Shown here: positions 8,408 through 26,125 of the stretch, piece after piece
How the letters are laid out: each line of letters starts with the position of its first letter
Position numbering within the stretch: the stretch's first letter is position 1
Virus record (IMG/VR): IMGVR_UViG_3300050014_001324
Location: 1 to 35,654 of that record
Origin: a virus
Reading direction: 5' to 3' (one strand)
DNA: 35,654 bases
The notes under the pieces: generated by a model
What the model saw: the letters and a program-made list of their open reading frames with translations, nothing else
The model's database searches: none
Told to the model about the DNA's origin: nothing
Position numbers and translations under genes: made by a program

Positions 8408-8929
8408 ATGAGCGACGGGACCAAAACAGCGGTCGATCTGGCGGTGGCGCAGGCGGCGGAGGCGGGCGAGCCGGAGGGGGCGGAGCAATTCGACCTTTTG
8501 GGCATGCCGAGCCTGTCTGAATTGCAGGAATCCATGGTCGCGGCGCGGCGCGGGCCGGGCCGGCCGAAGGGCGCGCGCAACCGCCGCACCACGGCGACCG
8601 TGGATTACCTGTTGGCGCGTCACACCATGCCGCTCGAAGGGCTGCTGTCCATGGCCGAGATGGGTGTTGACGAACTGGCCAAGCGGCTGAAGTGCTCGCC
8701 GCTGGAGGCGTGGCAGGAAAAGCGCCTGTGCTGGGCTGCCGCGTTGCCCTATTGCCACCAGCGTCAAGCCATCGCCGTCGATGTCACCAGTCACGGCATG
8801 GTGCAGCTGGTGGTCGAGGCCAGTCCTGAGGTGGCGGCATTGATCAATCAGGCCGGGGCGGGGGAGGGTGCCATCATCGACATGCTGCCGCTCGATGACG
8901 ATGACGACACGGGGAGGGGGGATCAGTGA
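8408..8929 (+). CDS. Candidate terminase small subunit
   Basis: A 173-residue protein with an AT-hook-like basic motif (RRGPGRPKGARNRRT, about residues 48-62), a helical middle and an Asp-rich tail (LPLDDDDD). Basic RPKG-type N-terminal segments occur in phage proteins encoded before the large terminase, which supports a DNA-recognition role in packaging. It is separated from the large terminase by about 2 kb of inserted genes, which weakens the positional argument. It overlaps the convergent resolvase by 7 bases. Confidence 0.5.
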   Translation: MSDGTKTAVDLAVAQAAEAGEPEGAEQFDLLGMPSLSELQESMVAARRGPGRPKGARNRRTTATVDYLLARHTMPLEGLLSMAEMGVDELAKRLKCSPLEAWQEKRLCWAAALPYCHQRQAIAVDVTSHGMVQLVVEASPEVAALINQAGAGEGAIIDMLPLDDDDDTGRGDQ

Positions 8930-9468
8930 GCTTTCAGCAGCCGATAGACCGACGCGCGGTCGATGTCGAGGCGCTTGGCAATGGCGGTGGCGCCCAAGCC
9001 CTCGGCCTTCAAGGCGCGGATCGCCTCGGCGTCGATGCTCGGCTTGCGGCCCTTGTAGACACCTTCGGCCTTGGCCTTGGCGATGCCCTCCAACTGGCGT
9101 TCCTTGCGGATGTTGGTCTCGAATTCGGCGAACACCCCCAACATGCCGAGGAAGGCCTTGCCTGCCGAGGTGCTGGTGTCAACCGGCTGTTCGGTGCAAG
9201 CCAGCGCGGCGCCCTTGGCTTCGATGGCGCGGACGATCTGTGCCAAGTCGCCGATGGAGCGGGCCAAGCGGTCGATGCGGGTGACCACCAGCGTGTCACC
9301 GGGGCGCAGGAAGGCAAGCACGGTGGCCAGTTCGGCGCGGCCGTCCGTGCTGGTGCCGCTGACCTTCTCCTCACGGATGACTTCGCAGCCGGCGAGGCGG
9401 AGGGCTTCGATCTGGATAGCGGTGTCCTGGTCGGTGCTGGAGACGCGGGCGTAACCGATCTTGCTCAT
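8923..9468 (-). CDS. Serine recombinase (resolvase/invertase family)
   Basis: A 181-residue, full-length Tn3/Gin-type recombinase. The catalytic serine is Ser10 in YARVSSTDQD; the active-site arginines lie in LVVTRIDRLARS (about residues 60-71); the long E helix and the C-terminal HTH (GLGATAIAKRLDIDRASVYR) are present. It acts by double-strand cleavage and 5'-phosphoserine links at short sites. It is the only recombinase in the window, on the strand opposite to the late genes and between the terminase candidates. It is too short to be a large serine integrase. A candidate res-like inverted repeat lies just upstream. Confidence 0.9.
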   Translation of the reverse strand: MSKIGYARVSSTDQDTAIQIEALRLAGCEVIREEKVSGTSTDGRAELATVLAFLRPGDTLVVTRIDRLARSIGDLAQIVRAIEAKGAALACTEQPVDTSTSAGKAFLGMLGVFAEFETNIRKERQLEGIAKAKAEGVYKGRKPSIDAEAIRALKAEGLGATAIAKRLDIDRASVYRLLKAH

Positions 9469-20404: not shown

Positions 20405-20833
20405 ATGCCCATCAATAACCAGTCCATTGGCCGTGATCTGGCGGTCGTGCTGACCACCTCGGCCGGCCCGGTGACCTTCAATCTCACCGAATACGACCCC
20501 AAGCCGCAGTTTACGTCAATTAAATCGAAGAAGCTGAGCGGCGAGACCTTCAGCGCCGGCATTCCCGACGGCTGGAAAGTCACCTTCAAGATGGAGCGCG
20601 AAAACTCCAGCCTTGACGATATGGTGGCGCAGAACGAGGACGACTATTTCAATGGTGTCGTCGTCACCGCCATCACCGCCATGGAAACCATCAGCGAGCC
20701 GGATGGATCGGTCAGCCAGTTCCGCTACACCAAGGGCTCGATCACCGGCGCCGATCTGGGCAACTGGAAGCCGGAAAGCTTCGTCGGTCAGTCCGTTGAA
20801 GTCTCGTTTTCCCGCCGTCAGAAGGTTTCTTGA
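20405..20833 (+). CDS. Tail tube protein
   Basis: 142 residues, beta-rich, directly after the sheath gene. The pattern KKLSGETFSAGIPDGWKVTF and the C-terminal FVGQSVEVSFSRR fits tube subunits that stack into the inner conduit of contractile tails. Function rests on size, fold pattern and order. Confidence 0.78.
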   Translation: MPINNQSIGRDLAVVLTTSAGPVTFNLTEYDPKPQFTSIKSKKLSGETFSAGIPDGWKVTFKMERENSSLDDMVAQNEDDYFNGVVVTAITAMETISEPDGSVSQFRYTKGSITGADLGNWKPESFVGQSVEVSFSRRQKVS

Positions 20834-20835
20834 TT

Positions 20836-21228
20836 ATGGTTAATGTTAAAGTTCATGATGATGTTGTTCAGCTCGAAACCCCGTCGCAGCAGAGCGCGCA
20901 GCCGTCCGCCAAGCCGGGAACGGCGACGGTGACGGACAGCCTGGGTCGCCGGATCGCCATCGCCACGCTCGGCCCCGTCGAGAAGATGCGCGCCTTCGCT
21001 GCTGTTGGCCCCGAAAATGCCAAGAACGACGGCTATATGAGCATTGCCCAGCTCGCCTTCCTGGTGACGGAAATCGACGGGGAGCCGATCCCTCGCCCGA
21101 AGAACGTCCTTCAGCTTGAGGGACTGCTGGCGCGACTGGGCAATGAGGGGGTCGATGCCATTATCGCCGGGGCGGTCGAGCATCTTCAGGCCAAGCCGAT
21201 CAACGAGGCCGCAGTAAAAAACTCGTAG
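20836..21228 (+). CDS. Tail assembly chaperone, short (unshifted) form
   Basis: 130 residues. This is the gpG-like partner that coats the tape measure during tail assembly. GAAGG (20821-20825) is 10 bases ahead of the ATG at 20836; a TTG at 20830 is the alternative. The final codons are GTA AAA AAC TCG TAG, which embed a canonical slippery heptamer, so most ribosomes end here and a fraction shift. The central part (AQLAFLVTEIDGEPIPRPKN) has the helical look of the family. Confidence 0.8.
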   Translation: MVNVKVHDDVVQLETPSQQSAQPSAKPGTATVTDSLGRRIAIATLGPVEKMRAFAAVGPENAKNDGYMSIAQLAFLVTEIDGEPIPRPKNVLQLEGLLARLGNEGVDAIIAGAVEHLQAKPINEAAVKNS

Positions 21229-21395
21229 GGGACTTCGGCTTCACCGGCCCGTTGGTGCTGGTGAAAAACGGAGTCCCCTATGACCGCGCCTTCGCCATGG
21301 AGGCGGACGAACTGGCCGCCCACGTCATCGTCTTTGGGCAGCTTGACGGCGGCGAGTGGGATTGGTCGAGCATGCGATGGAAGGAGCGGAAATGA
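20836..21395 (+). CDS. Tail assembly chaperone, -1 frameshift fusion
   Basis: The long gpGT-like form: 129 codons up to the slippery AAC, then 57 codons in the -1 frame from 21222 (starting LVGDFGFTGPL, with VPYDRAFAMEADELAAH and WDWSSMRW). The extension has normal coding composition and a tryptophan-rich end. It stops at TGA 21393-21395, overlapping the next gene by ATGA, which is independent evidence that ribosomes use this frame. The ratio of short to long form matters for tail length control in lambda; here it is predicted. Confidence 0.82.
21216..21280 (+). promoter_or_regulatory. Programmed -1 frameshift signal
   Basis: The slippery heptamer A AAA AAC is at 21216-21222, in the right phase. 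After a 3-base spacer TAGGGGACT (21226-21234) pairs perfectly with AGTCCCCTA (21272-21280), extended by a wobble pair and a C-G pair to 11 bp. A second stem, TTCACC (21240-21245) with GGTGAA (21260-21265), lies inside the loop. The unshifted stop TAG is part of the outer stem. Confidence 0.85.
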
Positions 21396-21886
21396 GGGAG
21401 TTCGGTTCTCTTGGGGCTCTGGGGCGATTCCTGGAGGTGGCGGCGGCGCAGGCATTGGAGCAAGAGGCGACCATGCGCCGCGCCGCCCGCGTCGTCGAAA
21501 AAGCAGCCAAGGCCAAGATCAGGCACTACCAGGACGCTTCCGGCCCGTTCGTTGGCTGGGGCGAACTGGCGGACAGCACCAAGGCCGACCGTGTGCGGTT
21601 GGGCTACACCGAAAACGACCCGCTGTTGCGCAGCGGCGCGCTTCAGGCCGGCATCACCCACGCGGCCAACCCGGTGCTGGCGGTGGTCGGCGTCTTGGAA
21701 TCGTCTCCAGTGGCCGATATCGCCGAATATTCGGAGCTTGGCACGGCCAAACAGCCGCCGCGCTCCTATCTGGGCGGGGCGGCGGCCGACAAGGCGGAGA
21801 AGGTCGCCGAAATCATCGGGGAGGGCGTCGCCCTGGCGCTGGTCGGGAAGGCGGTTCACCTGGGGCGGATGGCGATTGGCGATTAA
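21392..21886 (+). CDS. Phage virion protein (HK97 gp10-like/morphogenesis type)
   Basis: 164 residues. AAGGAG precedes the ATG at 21392, which overlaps the frameshift product's stop. The composition (RVVEKAAKAKIRHYQDASGP, then NDPLLRSGALQAGITHA and AEYSELGTAKQPPRSYLGGA) matches gp10/virion-morphogenesis proteins in which the ELGT...PPR segment is characteristic. It probably acts in tail completion. Its position after the chaperone, rather than before the sheath, is unusual. Confidence 0.7.
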   Translation: MREFGSLGALGRFLEVAAAQALEQEATMRRAARVVEKAAKAKIRHYQDASGPFVGWGELADSTKADRVRLGYTENDPLLRSGALQAGITHAANPVLAVVGVLESSPVADIAEYSELGTAKQPPRSYLGGAAADKAEKVAEIIGEGVALALVGKAVHLGRMAIGD

Positions 21887-22140
21887 TGGCCCGGCGGCAG
21901 ATAGCGGAGGGCGGCTAGGATAATTCCGGTGGCGGCGATGATCAGGCCGCCCAGCTTGATGGTCATGCGATGTTCGAGGAGTTGGATGGTCGTTTCAACC
22001 CGCGTGATATCGGTCTTCGTTGCCAGTTCCTGGCTGGTGGCTTCGGCGAACGCTTCCGCCGCCGCTTTGGCCTGGGCATGCGTGAACCCGCCGTTCTCCA
22101 GCTTCTCGACGAACTTCAGGGTATCGAAGGTGGTTGCCAT
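21883..22140 (-). CDS. DUF1640-like coiled-coil membrane protein
   Basis: 85 residues: a helical N-terminus (FDTLKFVEKLENGGFTHAQA), a coiled coil (about 25-60, with ITRVETTIQLLEHRM) and one C-terminal membrane helix (LGGLIIAATGIILAALRYL). The pattern is that of DUF1640 proteins, small bacterial relatives of mitochondrial CCDC90/MCUR1. Function is unknown. The start at 22140 gives the family length. It reads away from the ribbon-helix-helix gene on the same strand and converges on the virion gene with a 4-base overlap. Confidence 0.7.
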   Translation of the reverse strand: MATTFDTLKFVEKLENGGFTHAQAKAAAEAFAEATSQELATKTDITRVETTIQLLEHRMTIKLGGLIIAATGIILAALRYLPPGH

Positions 22141-22145
22141 GGCGG

Positions 22146-22334
22146 TTATGTGGCCTCTGGTGTGGTGGGTTTCAATTTTTTCTGCCGGGCCGCTTCCAAG
22201 CCGAGTTCGATCAGGCGGCGGGCAGCTTCGGCACGATTGGGCAATCCAGGCTCGTCGCGCCGCCACAGGTCAATCCTATCGCCGAGGTCAGGCGGCAGCC
22301 GCAATTCAAATCGGGTGGGTTTGCGCGTTTCCAT
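22146..22334 (-). CDS. Ribbon-helix-helix regulator
   Basis: 62 residues. The strand TRFELRLP is followed by two helices (DLGDRIDLWRRDE and NRAEAARRLIELGLEAA), the Arc/MetJ-type fold that binds palindromes as tetramers. The ATG at 22334 coincides with the predicted transcription start of the minus-strand promoter, so the mRNA is probably leaderless, consistent with the lack of a Shine-Dalgarno. It is the likely binder of the two ATACGTAT palindromes between it and the divergent accessory genes. Confidence 0.8.
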   Translation of the reverse strand: METRKPTRFELRLPPDLGDRIDLWRRDEPGLPNRAEAARRLIELGLEAARQKKLKPTTPEAT

Positions 22335-22340
22335 GGCTGG

Positions 22341-22406
22341 ATAATACGATAGATACGTATGGCCCGTCAATTATCTTGACGTTGACCCGGATGATACGTA
22401 TCATCC
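22341..22406. promoter_or_regulatory. Divergent promoters with two ATACGTAT operators
   Basis: Minus promoter: -35 TTGACG (22370-22365), 18 bp, -10 TATTAT (22346-22341). Plus promoter: -35 TTGACG (22376-22381), 17 bp, -10 TATCAT (22399-22404). Each contains a palindrome: ATACGTAT at 22353-22360 in the minus spacer and the perfect 18-mer GGATGATACGTATCATCC at 22389-22406 over the plus -10. Centres are 41 bp apart. Confidence 0.75.
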
Positions 22407-22478
22407 GAAGCATCAAGACGGCCCGACAAGGTGGTGGAACACCAAGCCGGGCCTAACTCAAACCACGAGGAAGATCTC

Positions 22479-22877
22479 ATGGCCCAAGCTGCTGCAAACA
22501 CTATCACAGTCCAGTCGCGCCGCGCATTCCTGGCGGTGGCCGCCGCCGCTGTCGTCGTTGCCCTGCCTCTGGCCGATGCCGGGGCGGGCATCGGTGGCCC
22601 CGATCCCGATGCGGTGTTGGTTGCCGCCTGGGAACATCTGCAAAATCTGGAGCATCAAGCCCGCGACAACATCGGTGATATTCCCGACGCGATGACCGAT
22701 GCGATCATCCAGATGGAAAATGTCATCGCCTATACGCCGTGCCATGGCGTCAACGGCGTGATCGTAAAGCTGCGATTGCTCGACTTTCTATGCACCGAAG
22801 GCAACAGCGTCACCGACTGGCAGGGGCCGTTGATCAAAAGCATCCTGGCGGTGCTGCCTGCCGCGTCCTTGGCATAG
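22479..22877 (+). CDS. Accessory protein with twin-arginine-like signal
   Basis: 132 residues. The N-terminus has SRRAFL (residues 13-18) followed by an Ala/Val-rich hydrophobic core (about 19-32) and an AlaXAla-type end (ADAGAG), matching a Tat export signal. The mature part is helical with two cysteines (about residues 87 and 102). Similar proteins recur in alphaproteobacterial phages and have no known function. GAGGAAG sets the start at 22479. It is first in the operon driven by the promoter at 22376-22404. Confidence 0.7.
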   Translation: MAQAAANTITVQSRRAFLAVAAAAVVVALPLADAGAGIGGPDPDAVLVAAWEHLQNLEHQARDNIGDIPDAMTDAIIQMENVIAYTPCHGVNGVIVKLRLLDFLCTEGNSVTDWQGPLIKSILAVLPAASLA

Positions 22878-22886
22878 GGGGCGAAC

Positions 22887-23078
22887 ATGATCGGACCCTG
22901 CCCGCTGTCCTTCGAGGAAGCCCGCCTTCTGGCCCTCTACCGCCGCCATGACGAGGCGGAGCGCCGCTTGGTGATGCGGCTGCTCCGCTTCCTGGATCAA
23001 CCGCCGCCGTCCGAAGTGGCAGCGCAAGACCCTTGCTTGAACTCCAACGTTGTCGCGTTTCCCAGAGGTTCCAAATGA
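22887..23078 (+). CDS. Small accessory protein (63 residues)
   Basis: A helical protein (FEEARLLALYRRHDEAERRL then VMRLLRFLDQPPP) with a loose C-terminus. GGGGGCGA lies ahead of the ATG. It overlaps the Rha-like gene by ATGA. No family recognised. The helical half could form dimers; a DNA- or protein-binding role is not shown. Confidence 0.65.
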   Translation: MIGPCPLSFEEARLLALYRRHDEAERRLVMRLLRFLDQPPPSEVAAQDPCLNSNVVAFPRGSK

Positions 23079-24010
23079 ACGACCTGTCCCCCAATGTCTC
23101 TTTGCGCGACGGCGCCGTCGTCGCCAACAGCCGCGATATCGCCGCCTTCTTCGATAAAAACCACCGTGATATTCTCCGGGATATTGATAACCTGTTGAAA
23201 TCGTTAGCTGCGCAAAATTGCGCAGCCGGTTTTGATGGCATGTTCACCCTTCGGAACGAGTTCCACGAAGGGGCCAACCGCGAGGTTCGTTCCTTCGACC
23301 TGACCAAGGACGGTTTCACCCTGCTGGTGATGGGCTTCACCGGCGACAAGGCGTTGAAGTTCAAGCTGCGCTACATCGAGGCGTTCAACACCATGGAGGC
23401 CGCGGTCAAACGGTTGGGCGCGCCCGACCGCGAAACCGACCGCTTCGACAGTTCGGACCTCAGCCGGCGGGTGGCGATGGTCACCGAATGCCGGCTGGCC
23501 TTCGGCGAAGCGCAGGCCCAAGCCTTATGGAAGAAGTTGGGCTTGCCGCTGGAACCGGACCTGCCGGTGAAGGGGCGGGCGCTGTCCGGCTGGGCCGCGC
23601 CGCGTTGGGCCGACGATCCCGAAAGCTGCCTGAAGCATCTACTGACCTGGCCGATTGACCGGGACCAGCACCGGACGGTGCACGAGTTGATCCTGCGCGC
23701 GGGCTATGATGTTGACGGCCCCGATGGGCAGAGCCATTCGGTGTTGCGCCACCTGGGCCTGATTCTCGGCCCCAAGGGCTGGGATGGATGGTTGGCGGTG
23801 TCCGACAGCTTGGGGCCGCTGCTGAACGTCTTCGGCGGCTCACCCTGGATGGACAACTGGTCGCGGACGCTGGCGCAATTGCCGGGGGCGCGGCTCAGCC
23901 CGGCGCCGCTGGATTTCGGCGGGTTCAAAACCCCCGCCGTGCTGCTGCCCGCCAAGCTGTGGGCCGGGCAAATGCGCTGGCACGCCGATAACGTTTGGCG
24001 CAGCCGGTAA
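23075..24010 (+). CDS. Rha-family phage regulatory protein
   Basis: 311 residues. The N-terminal half (about 1-110) is a pRha domain: NSRDIAAFFDKNHRDILRDI, then SFDLTKDGFTLLVMGFTGDK and KLRYIEAFNTME. The C-terminal half (LPVKGRALSGWAAPRW onwards) has a composition often seen fused to antirepressor-type domains. Rha proteins are linked to control of phage lytic growth in enterobacterial phages; the target here is unknown. It ends just before a strong terminator that closes the accessory operon. Confidence 0.78.
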   Translation: MNDLSPNVSLRDGAVVANSRDIAAFFDKNHRDILRDIDNLLKSLAAQNCAAGFDGMFTLRNEFHEGANREVRSFDLTKDGFTLLVMGFTGDKALKFKLRYIEAFNTMEAAVKRLGAPDRETDRFDSSDLSRRVAMVTECRLAFGEAQAQALWKKLGLPLEPDLPVKGRALSGWAAPRWADDPESCLKHLLTWPIDRDQHRTVHELILRAGYDVDGPDGQSHSVLRHLGLILGPKGWDGWLAVSDSLGPLLNVFGGSPWMDNWSRTLAQLPGARLSPAPLDFGGFKTPAVLLPAKLWAGQMRWHADNVWRSR

Positions 24011-24032
24011 GTCTGAGTTCGTCTGTTTCTAA

Positions 24033-24065
24033 CGCCATCGCCCCGCCGTGGGGCGGTGGCGTTTT
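24033..24065 (+). terminator. Terminator closing the accessory operon
   Basis: CGCCA-T-CG-CCCC (24033-24044) pairs with GGGG-CG-G-TGGCG (24050-24061) around the 5-base loop GCCGT, giving 12 pairs including one wobble, followed by TTTT. The tape measure gene starts 39 bases on. Confidence 0.8.
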
Positions 24066-24103: not shown

Positions 24104-26125
24104 ATGATCGAATCGTTCAAGATCGGCATCACGGTGGGCTTGATCAATCATGCCTCGGGGGCTTTGGCCCTGCTCGGACGCGATCTGTCTCGGGCCGATG
24201 GGTCGGCGCAGAAGCTGGAGGCCAGCCTTAAGCGCATTCAGATGATGACCTTTGGCGGGGCCGCGCTGGCTGGCGCGGGGTTCCTTGGCATCAAGGGCAT
24301 CGAAAGCACCTATGAGGCGGCGAAGACCTATGAGCAGGCCTTCGCCCGCTTTCAGGCTCTGAACCTTGGCGTTTCGGTCAACAGTGATGCCGACAAATTC
24401 GCCCAATCGACCCGCATCATGGGGGCGAGCGCCACCGATCTGATCACCACCCTGACCGATTTGCATACGGTGATGGGCGATTTCAACAACGCCAAGGCCG
24501 TCGCGCCGCTGATTGCCAAGATGGAATTCGCCAACAAGGCGGTGTTTGACAAAGCTGGCGTCAAATTCGACCAAAAACAGGCGCTGGATCTGGCCAAGGT
24601 CATTGAGTTGCGCGGCGGCTTCCGCTCGTCGGACGAGATGATGCTTCAGGCCGATTTCTCCCAGCACGTCATGAGCGGAACCGGCGGCCGTGTTATGCCA
24701 AGCGATTACCTCAGTTTTCTGGGAACAGGTGGTGTGCCTGCCCGGCTACAATCGAATGATGTCTTCTATTATCAGATGGAACCGTTGATTCAGGCGATGA
24801 AGGGGGGCGGCTCTGCTGTCGGTGCGGGCCTTCGGGCTGCCTATCAGAATCTGGGGCAGGGACGCACCACAACTCGGTCTGCCAAGGAATTGGAGCGCCT
24901 CGATTTGCTCAAGCCGAACATGGTCGAATACGACAAGATCGGTCGGGTCAAACAGATCAAGCCGGGCGGCGTAAAGGGCGGCGACCTTGTCGGCTCCGAT
25001 CCGATGGAGTTTCTGAAGACGGTCCTGCTGCCAGCCTTCGCGGCGCACGGCATTACCAGCGACAAAGACATCATCAATGAATTTGCTACGGTCTTTTCCA
25101 ACCCTCGGGCGGCGGCGCTCTACTCCACCTTGTTCCAGCAGATGGACAAGATCGACAAGAATATGGCGATCAACCGCAAGGCGGCGGGCATCACGGATTT
25201 GGAGAAGCAAGCGGAGAACACCCCGGCCGGCGTCGAAATCAAGGCTGAAAAGGCGTGGGAGAATCTTCGCATTCAGCTAGGCCTAAAGATTATCCCTCTT
25301 GTTGTGCCGATGATCGACAAGCTGGCCAATGGGCTGCAATTCCTTGCCGGTGTAGCGGAGCGCCATCCGACCGCGACTGCCTGGATCATGGGAACGGCGG
25401 GCGCGCTGTCGGTGCTGGCGCTGGCTGGCGGGTCCGCGCTGCTGGTTGCCGCCGGTTTTAGCATGATCGGTCTGGCGCTGCCCGGCCTTGCAATTGGCCT
25501 GGGATCTATGATGCCGCATCTGGCTGCTATCGGTCTGATTATCGGCGGCACGATCTTCATCGCTAAGAATTGGGAATCGGCCATGCAGGGCTACAGCCTC
25601 GCCTGGAAATACTATTCCAAGGAGTTCGTGCGGTGGTGGGAGTGGCAAAAAACCGCTGCCATGGACAAGATAGACCAGATGAAGGCCGCCCTTTCCGAGA
25701 AGTGGAAGGGGATCACCGACGCCTGGGACAACGGTTTGAAGATGATTTCTTCATCGGTCTTTGCCCTGTTCGACAGGATCGCTAAGTCCCTCCCTAACTT
25801 CATGCAGCCGACCGCTCCGCATGTCGAAGGTAAGATCGACGACCCTTCGGCTGCTGATGATACACGCAAAGTTCACCTTCCCATGCCGCCGCCGTTGACG
25901 ACGAACACGGCCATCCCGCCCTACTACAGTGCATCGAATGTCCCACCGGACGCGTCCCGTGCCGATCCCTCCGCCGGCCCCCGTAAGGTCACCATCGAGA
26001 ACAATATTCACCTCGACGGCCGCCAGATCGCCAAGACCACCGCTGATCATTGGCTGTCCGAGATGAACGGCCCTGCCGCAGGCCGCACCTCCTTTGACCC
26101 CCGCATGAGCTTCGTGCAGCCATGA
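24104..26125 (+). CDS. Tail tape measure protein
   Basis: 673 residues, the longest tail gene after the fibre. It sets tail length and is expelled ahead of the DNA. It has long helical stretches and a hydrophobic block at about residues 425-490 (with TAWIMGTAGALSVLALAGGS and GLALPGLAIGLGSM) for membrane contact. GAGGAAAG precedes the ATG at 24104. It is normally adjacent to the chaperone gene; here an accessory module separates them. It overlaps the next gene by ATGA. Confidence 0.85.
   Translation: MIESFKIGITVGLINHASGALALLGRDLSRADGSAQKLEASLKRIQMMTFGGAALAGAGFLGIKGIESTYEAAKTYEQAFARFQALNLGVSVNSDADKFAQSTRIMGASATDLITTLTDLHTVMGDFNNAKAVAPLIAKMEFANKAVFDKAGVKFDQKQALDLAKVIELRGGFRSSDEMMLQADFSQHVMSGTGGRVMPSDYLSFLGTGGVPARLQSNDVFYYQMEPLIQAMKGGGSAVGAGLRAAYQNLGQGRTTTRSAKELERLDLLKPNMVEYDKIGRVKQIKPGGVKGGDLVGSDPMEFLKTVLLPAFAAHGITSDKDIINEFATVFSNPRAAALYSTLFQQMDKIDKNMAINRKAAGITDLEKQAENTPAGVEIKAEKAWENLRIQLGLKIIPLVVPMIDKLANGLQFLAGVAERHPTATAWIMGTAGALSVLALAGGSALLVAAGFSMIGLALPGLAIGLGSMMPHLAAIGLIIGGTIFIAKNWESAMQGYSLAWKYYSKEFVRWWEWQKTAAMDKIDQMKAALSEKWKGITDAWDNGLKMISSSVFALFDRIAKSLPNFMQPTAPHVEGKIDDPSAADDTRKVHLPMPPPLTTNTAIPPYYSASNVPPDASRADPSAGPRKVTIENNIHLDGRQIAKTTADHWLSEMNGPAAGRTSFDPRMSFVQP

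Follow-up and report, generated by a model that had tools for sequence, protein, structure and literature searches.

A probable immI-like regulatory cassette, opened by a conserved structured leader RNA, between late tail genes of a contractile-tailed phage

The closest described counterpart of the locus presented here is the immI region, or 'ant moron', of phage P22 (mnt, arc, ant, sar, sieA), in which ribbon-helix-helix (RHH) repressors control an antirepressor-type gene from promoters of their own, and which is inserted in the late operon and absent or different in relatives (PMC8022706; PMC2629481). Despite lying inside the late operon, it escapes most expression from that operon (PMC8022706). 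The immI operon of P1 and P7 (c4 antisense RNA, icd, ant) opens with a structured RNA that is followed by a small ORF and then by the antirepressor. The isrK-orf45-anrP leader of Gifsy-1 governs its downstream anti-repressor gene through an RNA structure that lies at a small upstream ORF (PMC4825925). The accessory block described here lies in a window of 35,654 nucleotides (the whole stretch of viral DNA analysed, an IMG/VR record from a temperate phage) and would be the P22 arrangement with Ant replaced by Rha and with Mnt plus Arc replaced by one divergent RHH gene. Whereas P22 immI sits between genes 16 and 9, the block occupies the tape-measure junction of a contractile-tailed phage, and it adds a conserved leader RNA and extra small genes. 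It shares with P1/P7 the order of structured RNA, small ORF and antirepressor-type gene, but its hairpins are different and its repressor gene is divergent. Compared with Gifsy-1, its leader is unrelated in sequence and no sRNA pair or terminator was found in it. The KilA-N block of Komagataeibacter phage phiKX1 (L008 18762-21572; L numbers are our locus labels) likewise has minus-strand genes divergent from a regulator, among related tail genes, but it lies right after the tape measure, has no match to the leader, and no RHH or Rha homologue was found there.

The block (21883-24063) comprises two minus-strand and three plus-strand genes, with divergent promoters, a palindrome resembling an operator and a strong terminator; on its left is a tail-completion gene and on its right the tape measure gene. 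A preliminary description had proposed such a self-contained accessory module, and its five reading frames, its divergent promoters (two consensus matches in the divergent gap) and its closing terminator were all recovered where it had placed them. It had also set the module between the tail chaperone region and the tape measure, which is right on the tape measure side, but the direct left neighbour is a tail-completion or neck-type gene and the chaperone lies one gene farther upstream. The features are as follows.

20833-21228, tail chaperone
21392-21886, plus strand, tail-completion or Phage_tail_S-like late gene, left flank (phrog_222, 5.5e-11; PF05069, 0.0028, weak)
21883-22140, minus strand, CCDC90/DUF1640-like small protein with a C-terminal membrane helix (phrog_17872, 3e-10)
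22146-22334, minus strand, putative RHH repressor (phrog_4738 'transcriptional repressor', 1.3e-6)
22341-22370, minus strand, candidate promoter of the repressor side (TTGACG-18-TATTAT, 10/12, consensus match only)
22352-22361, operator-like half site GATACGTATg, between the -35 and -10 of the minus promoter
22376-22404, plus strand, candidate promoter of the Rha operon (TTGACG-17-TATCAT, 10/12, consensus match only)
22388-22407, perfect 20-bp palindrome CGGATGATACGTATCATCCG, proposed RHH operator, covering the plus -10
22420-22453, plus strand, hairpin P1, with a covarying outer stem and a conserved GGUG-6nt-CACC
22463-22482, plus strand, hairpin P2, spanning the Shine-Dalgarno (SD) sequence and the start codon (CCA pairs with the UGG of AUGG)
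22479-22877, plus strand, small helical protein with a Tat-like signal, encoded at the head of the operon (in other genomes the same leader precedes genes for related proteins)
22887-23078, plus strand, 63-aa protein (read from the sequence)
23075-24010, plus strand, Rha-family phage regulator, proposed antirepressor (PF09669, 2e-25; phrog_518, 7e-28; TIGR02681, 2e-22)
24031-24063, plus strand, intrinsic terminator, a 14-bp stem then TTTT (z -2.9)
24104-26125, plus strand, tape measure protein, right flank (phrog_28, 3.6e-24)

The flanking tail genes allowed the same junction to be followed into relatives: the left-flank gene has a homologue in phiKX1 (27%), and the tape measure protein is 35-40% identical to those of Burkholderia and Acidovorax P2-like phages. 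The tail_S and tape measure genes are 35 bp apart in a Ralstonia prophage, 17 bp in phiKX1 and 10 bp in a Komagataeibacter nataicola prophage, while an alphaproteobacterial prophage in genome G336, whose tail_S protein is 47% identical, has a 200-bp gap with one small minus-strand membrane ORF; chaperone and tape measure genes are also adjacent in the Burkholderia and Acidovorax phages. Because the junction is empty or nearly so in these four relatives and the five genes are absent from it, the block is an accessory insertion within the late operon, variable among relatives as in P22-type immI, and the accessory character first proposed is borne out by this comparison. A scan of IMG/VR by peptide pattern returned no close relatives of the tape measure, circularisation-type, Tat-like or Rha C-terminal proteins, and comparison of the block DNA with phage records returned matches to the Rha domain and no other DNA-level relatives. 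At the end of the chaperone ORF, an AAAAAAC slip site (about 21211-21217) precedes an ORF in the -1 frame (to 21395); this is the usual tail chaperone frameshift.

On the repressor side, the RHH protein shares 31-39% identity with RHH proteins that other phages have at this position and aligns with those divergent from the same leader in four other loci. It has no Pfam match of its own, and its structure model (mean pLDDT 66) places two helices after a short N-terminal stretch; the matches to solved structures were spurious and were set aside. The phrog_4738 match and the alignment, with the Arc-family (PF03869) partners at L027, identify an Arc/Mnt-type RHH gene of the kind found in P22-type immI. 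The last four bases of the CCDC90-like gene are shared, tail to tail, with its left neighbour, and no terminator separates the two. Its product matches PF07798 at E 1.4e-6 and 28.8 bits, below the curated gathering cut-off of 33.5 and thus outside the family by that measure. It is most similar (51% identity over 70 aa) to the product of a small gene on an Azospirillum plasmid (L022 2853-3134) that adjoins transporter genes, so this part of the block may be host-derived.

The plus-strand genes are tightly packed: 9 bases separate the Tat-like gene from the 63-aa gene, whose stop codon runs into the Rha start in an ATGA overlap; by this layout the three form one translationally linked operon. 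Read from its sequence, the Tat-like protein has an SRRAFL motif and a hydrophobic stretch that form a candidate Tat signal; relatives elsewhere keep SRRxLL, and some members are without the signal. Its structure model is helical (pLDDT 63), and it is weakly but recognisably related to the proteins of L090-L095 and to one in L096. The 63-aa protein matched no family in any library searched. The N-terminal domain of the last gene scores well above the curated cut-offs for Rha (PF09669, 89.5 versus 29.9 bits; TIGR02681, 79.2 versus 45.95), and its proposed role as an antirepressor rests on that family annotation.

Signals between the two gene sets point to local control. The two candidate promoters are the only sigma-70-like matches in 5 kb, where 1.1 would be expected, and both lie in the divergent gap. 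The palindrome core, GATACGTATC, allowing at most one mismatch, has only two copies in the 35.7-kb window, both also in the gap, the second of them inside the minus promoter. This pair of sites fits the needs of a dimeric RHH autorepressor, and we infer that the RHH protein binds there. No exact LexA box is present at the plus promoter, and one-mismatch sites occur no more often than by chance.

The plus operon begins with a 5' leader (22420-22482) in which P1 and P2 are joined by a CURACC linker. This element came to light when 73 bp ahead of the Tat-like gene matched a phage-like plasmid of Rhodoplanes, whose cassette has the same layout: tail-completion gene, minus-strand gene with a hydrophobic C-terminus, minus-strand RHH gene, leader and plus-strand genes. 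Further copies were gathered by an exact-pattern scan, a covariance model, genome scans and two further pattern scans, giving about 30 distinct leaders with the outer stem, the CURACC and the start codon, in proteobacterial prophages and viral contigs. Many exact matches to the P1 core in viral contigs had neither outer stem nor start codon and were dropped by inspection as chance, as were weak genome matches inside coding sequence (L068, L069, L071-L073, L077-L079, L084, L086, L088).

The leader is a conserved structured RNA. In the P1 alignment, both sides had changed in 22 cells, where shuffles gave 4.8, and 95% of cells were paired, against at most 51% in slid controls. P2 provides independent evidence, since it lay outside the search model: it folds better than dinucleotide shuffles, with a combined z of -9.3 over 28 leaders that are not all independent, and the listed z values of 20 less similar leaders combine to about -8.3. 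The AUG bases pair with an upstream segment in 26 of the 28, and the base of P2 re-pairs as the nucleotide after the AUG varies, from CCA/UGG to GCA/UGC (L096, L099) and UCA/UGA (L026). In the class with a divergent RHH gene, a gap of 5-19 nt separates the promoter -10 from P1, which would then be the 5' end of the mRNA; the promoter score of a single locus is often not beyond chance. Across leaders, P2 sequesters the ribosome binding site no more than is seen in background: opening energy and SD accessibility are at the background level, and only the start codon shows somewhat more pairing (p about 0.006-0.008). Given this background accessibility, the leader may act by silencing, by insulation or through access regulated by a factor. 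None of the Rfam 15 covariance models matched the leader, and C4 antisense RNA (RF01695) had no match in the window or in ten leader loci at E values up to 5 or 1. The family is therefore undescribed in Rfam 15; the c4-a1b1 motif is listed without an Rfam number (PMC2864571) and so stands outside that comparison.

The leader recurs beside repressor and antirepressor genes. A divergent RHH gene accompanies it in the window and in L021, L044, L060 and L097, a divergent Xre-type HTH gene in L090, L091, L093, L067, L066 and L062, and an Arc-family RHH pair in L027 (PF03869; 7e-11 and 2e-7). Downstream lie antirepressor-type genes of several families, namely Rha in the window, Bro-N in L063/L096, L065/L097 and L067/L092, and ORF6N in L027; in a survey of alphaproteobacterial genomes, three of the seven leaders judged genuine lead into Bro-N genes within 1 kb. 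The first gene after the leader often encodes a small helical protein. Immediately before the tape measure, the cassette is found in the window and in two phages unrelated to it that have the same architecture: L097 reads chaperone, RHH, leader, 127 aa, Bro-N (1e-18), 108 aa and TMP_2 (2e-8), and L027 reads two Arc-family proteins, hairpin, ORF6N (2e-17) and TMP_3 (3e-48). In a second context, the leader precedes HNH nuclease genes that have no divergent repressor (L029, L030, L032, L052), several of which are followed by terminase or other head genes. At L102 (G290:C1) it stands before genes that resemble IS605-type TnpB by eye; with the HNH genes at other copies, this raises the possibility that homing-type nuclease genes are also among those the leader marks. 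One chromosomal copy with a divergent Xre repressor (L098, G016:C1:27900-43900) has no obvious phage genes just downstream and is possibly a remnant.

We consider it probable that the block is an immI-like regulatory cassette, an 'ant moron' between late tail genes in which an RHH repressor is set against a Rha-type antirepressor operon. Its anatomy, its insertion, the palindrome, and the covarying leader that recurs with repressor and antirepressor genes are the observations on which the following regulatory scheme is built. The RHH protein would bind the GATACGTATC sites in the divergent gap, repress the plus promoter and tune its own. The preliminary description took the layout to suit expression of the module in a lysogen with silent late genes; by the P22 model, the repressor side alone would be on in a lysogen and the Rha operon off. 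Should repression fail, upon induction or when phage DNA enters a cell that lacks the RHH protein, the operon would be transcribed from about 22411, as an mRNA beginning with the P1/P2 leader and ending at the terminator. The leader would set translation of the first gene and, through translational coupling, could set Rha output too, given the 9-nt spacing before the 63-aa gene and the ATGA overlap before Rha; it may also keep late read-through RNA from making Rha. The Rha protein would then act as an antirepressor or lytic-control protein. The window's candidate repressors (minus strand, 6-515 and 1405-1812) have HTH domains only, at E 0.001, and no peptidase domain was found in them; Gifsy prophages have non-cleavable repressors that are inactivated by antirepressors (PMC3121763), and by this analogy induction of the window phage may need an antirepressor. 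Several points speak against the scheme: it gives the CCDC90-like and Tat-like genes nothing to do, the background-level SD accessibility of the leaders does not demonstrate an OFF function, and some leaders precede HNH genes without a divergent repressor.

Superinfection exclusion and host conversion were proposed at the outset as jobs for the module alongside lytic control. The RHH gene, the operator, the Rha-type regulator and the recurrence with other antirepressors favour lytic control, while the other two have no positive evidence and may still be served by the two putative membrane or exported proteins. A moron whose Tat-exported and CCDC90-like membrane proteins act at the lysogen envelope, with RHH and Rha only regulating them, would account for two of the five products looking membrane-linked or exported, for sieA standing beside immI in P22 (PMC8022706; PMC2629481) and for the lone membrane ORF at the junction in the G336 relative. 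We judge it unlikely, as the block has no match among PADLOC defence families, the regulators recur while the Tat-like family does not always follow the leader and sometimes lacks the signal, and the Tat-like gene lies on the side that the RHH protein should silence in a lysogen. Small adjacent ORFs, the frequency of RHH proteins among antitoxins and a Fic/Doc gene elsewhere in the phage could also suggest a toxin-antitoxin or addiction module, formed by the RHH and CCDC90-like genes or by the Tat-like and 63-aa genes, with Rha incidental. This seems very unlikely to us: no toxin family was found in any library searched, the RHH and plus-strand genes are divergent rather than in one operon, and the partners of the leader in L063, L065, L067 and L027 are antirepressors, not toxins.

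A different objection concerns the leader itself, which might be a DNA element, either a binding site or a recombination hairpin, that helps morons move. It is indeed found at late-gene junctions with unrelated cargo, from antirepressors to HNH genes and a likely TnpB gene; at the DNA level P1 forms a palindrome, and it has few GU pairs (6 of 339 pairs). Yet the leader always points to a start codon, in most cases within AUGGC, that lies about 50-63 nt further on, its internal loops are flexible, and it has a second hairpin that spans the SD and compensates at its base for changes after the AUG; with promoters ending just short of P1 in the RHH class, these features make a DNA element quite unlikely. 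The broader proposal, which we put forward tentatively as possible, is that an undescribed family of structured 5' RNAs in phages of several proteobacterial groups marks morons that lie within late operons but are transcribed independently, and controls how these are translated; antirepressors and nucleases would then be produced from transcripts of their own rather than through late read-through.

On the immI-like reading, secondary immunity cassettes of the P22 kind, which have long been familiar from a single branch of Salmonella phages, would recur at the tape-measure junction of unrelated phages, with repressors and antirepressors interchangeable among them. The leader would provide a specific, searchable RNA signature for finding such cassettes in poorly annotated prophages, and it makes testable the old question of how a moron in a late operon avoids being expressed from late mRNA.

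Two further observations concern other parts of the window. A small ORF (503-931), AbrB-like by eye and without a Pfam match, precedes a plus-strand Fic/Doc gene (928-1311; PF02661, 2e-17), and the two may be a toxin-antitoxin pair next to the repressor genes. A minus-strand serine recombinase gene (8923-9468; Resolvase PF00239, 1.4e-39), located immediately upstream of the terminase region, is possibly a second accessory insertion or an invertase.
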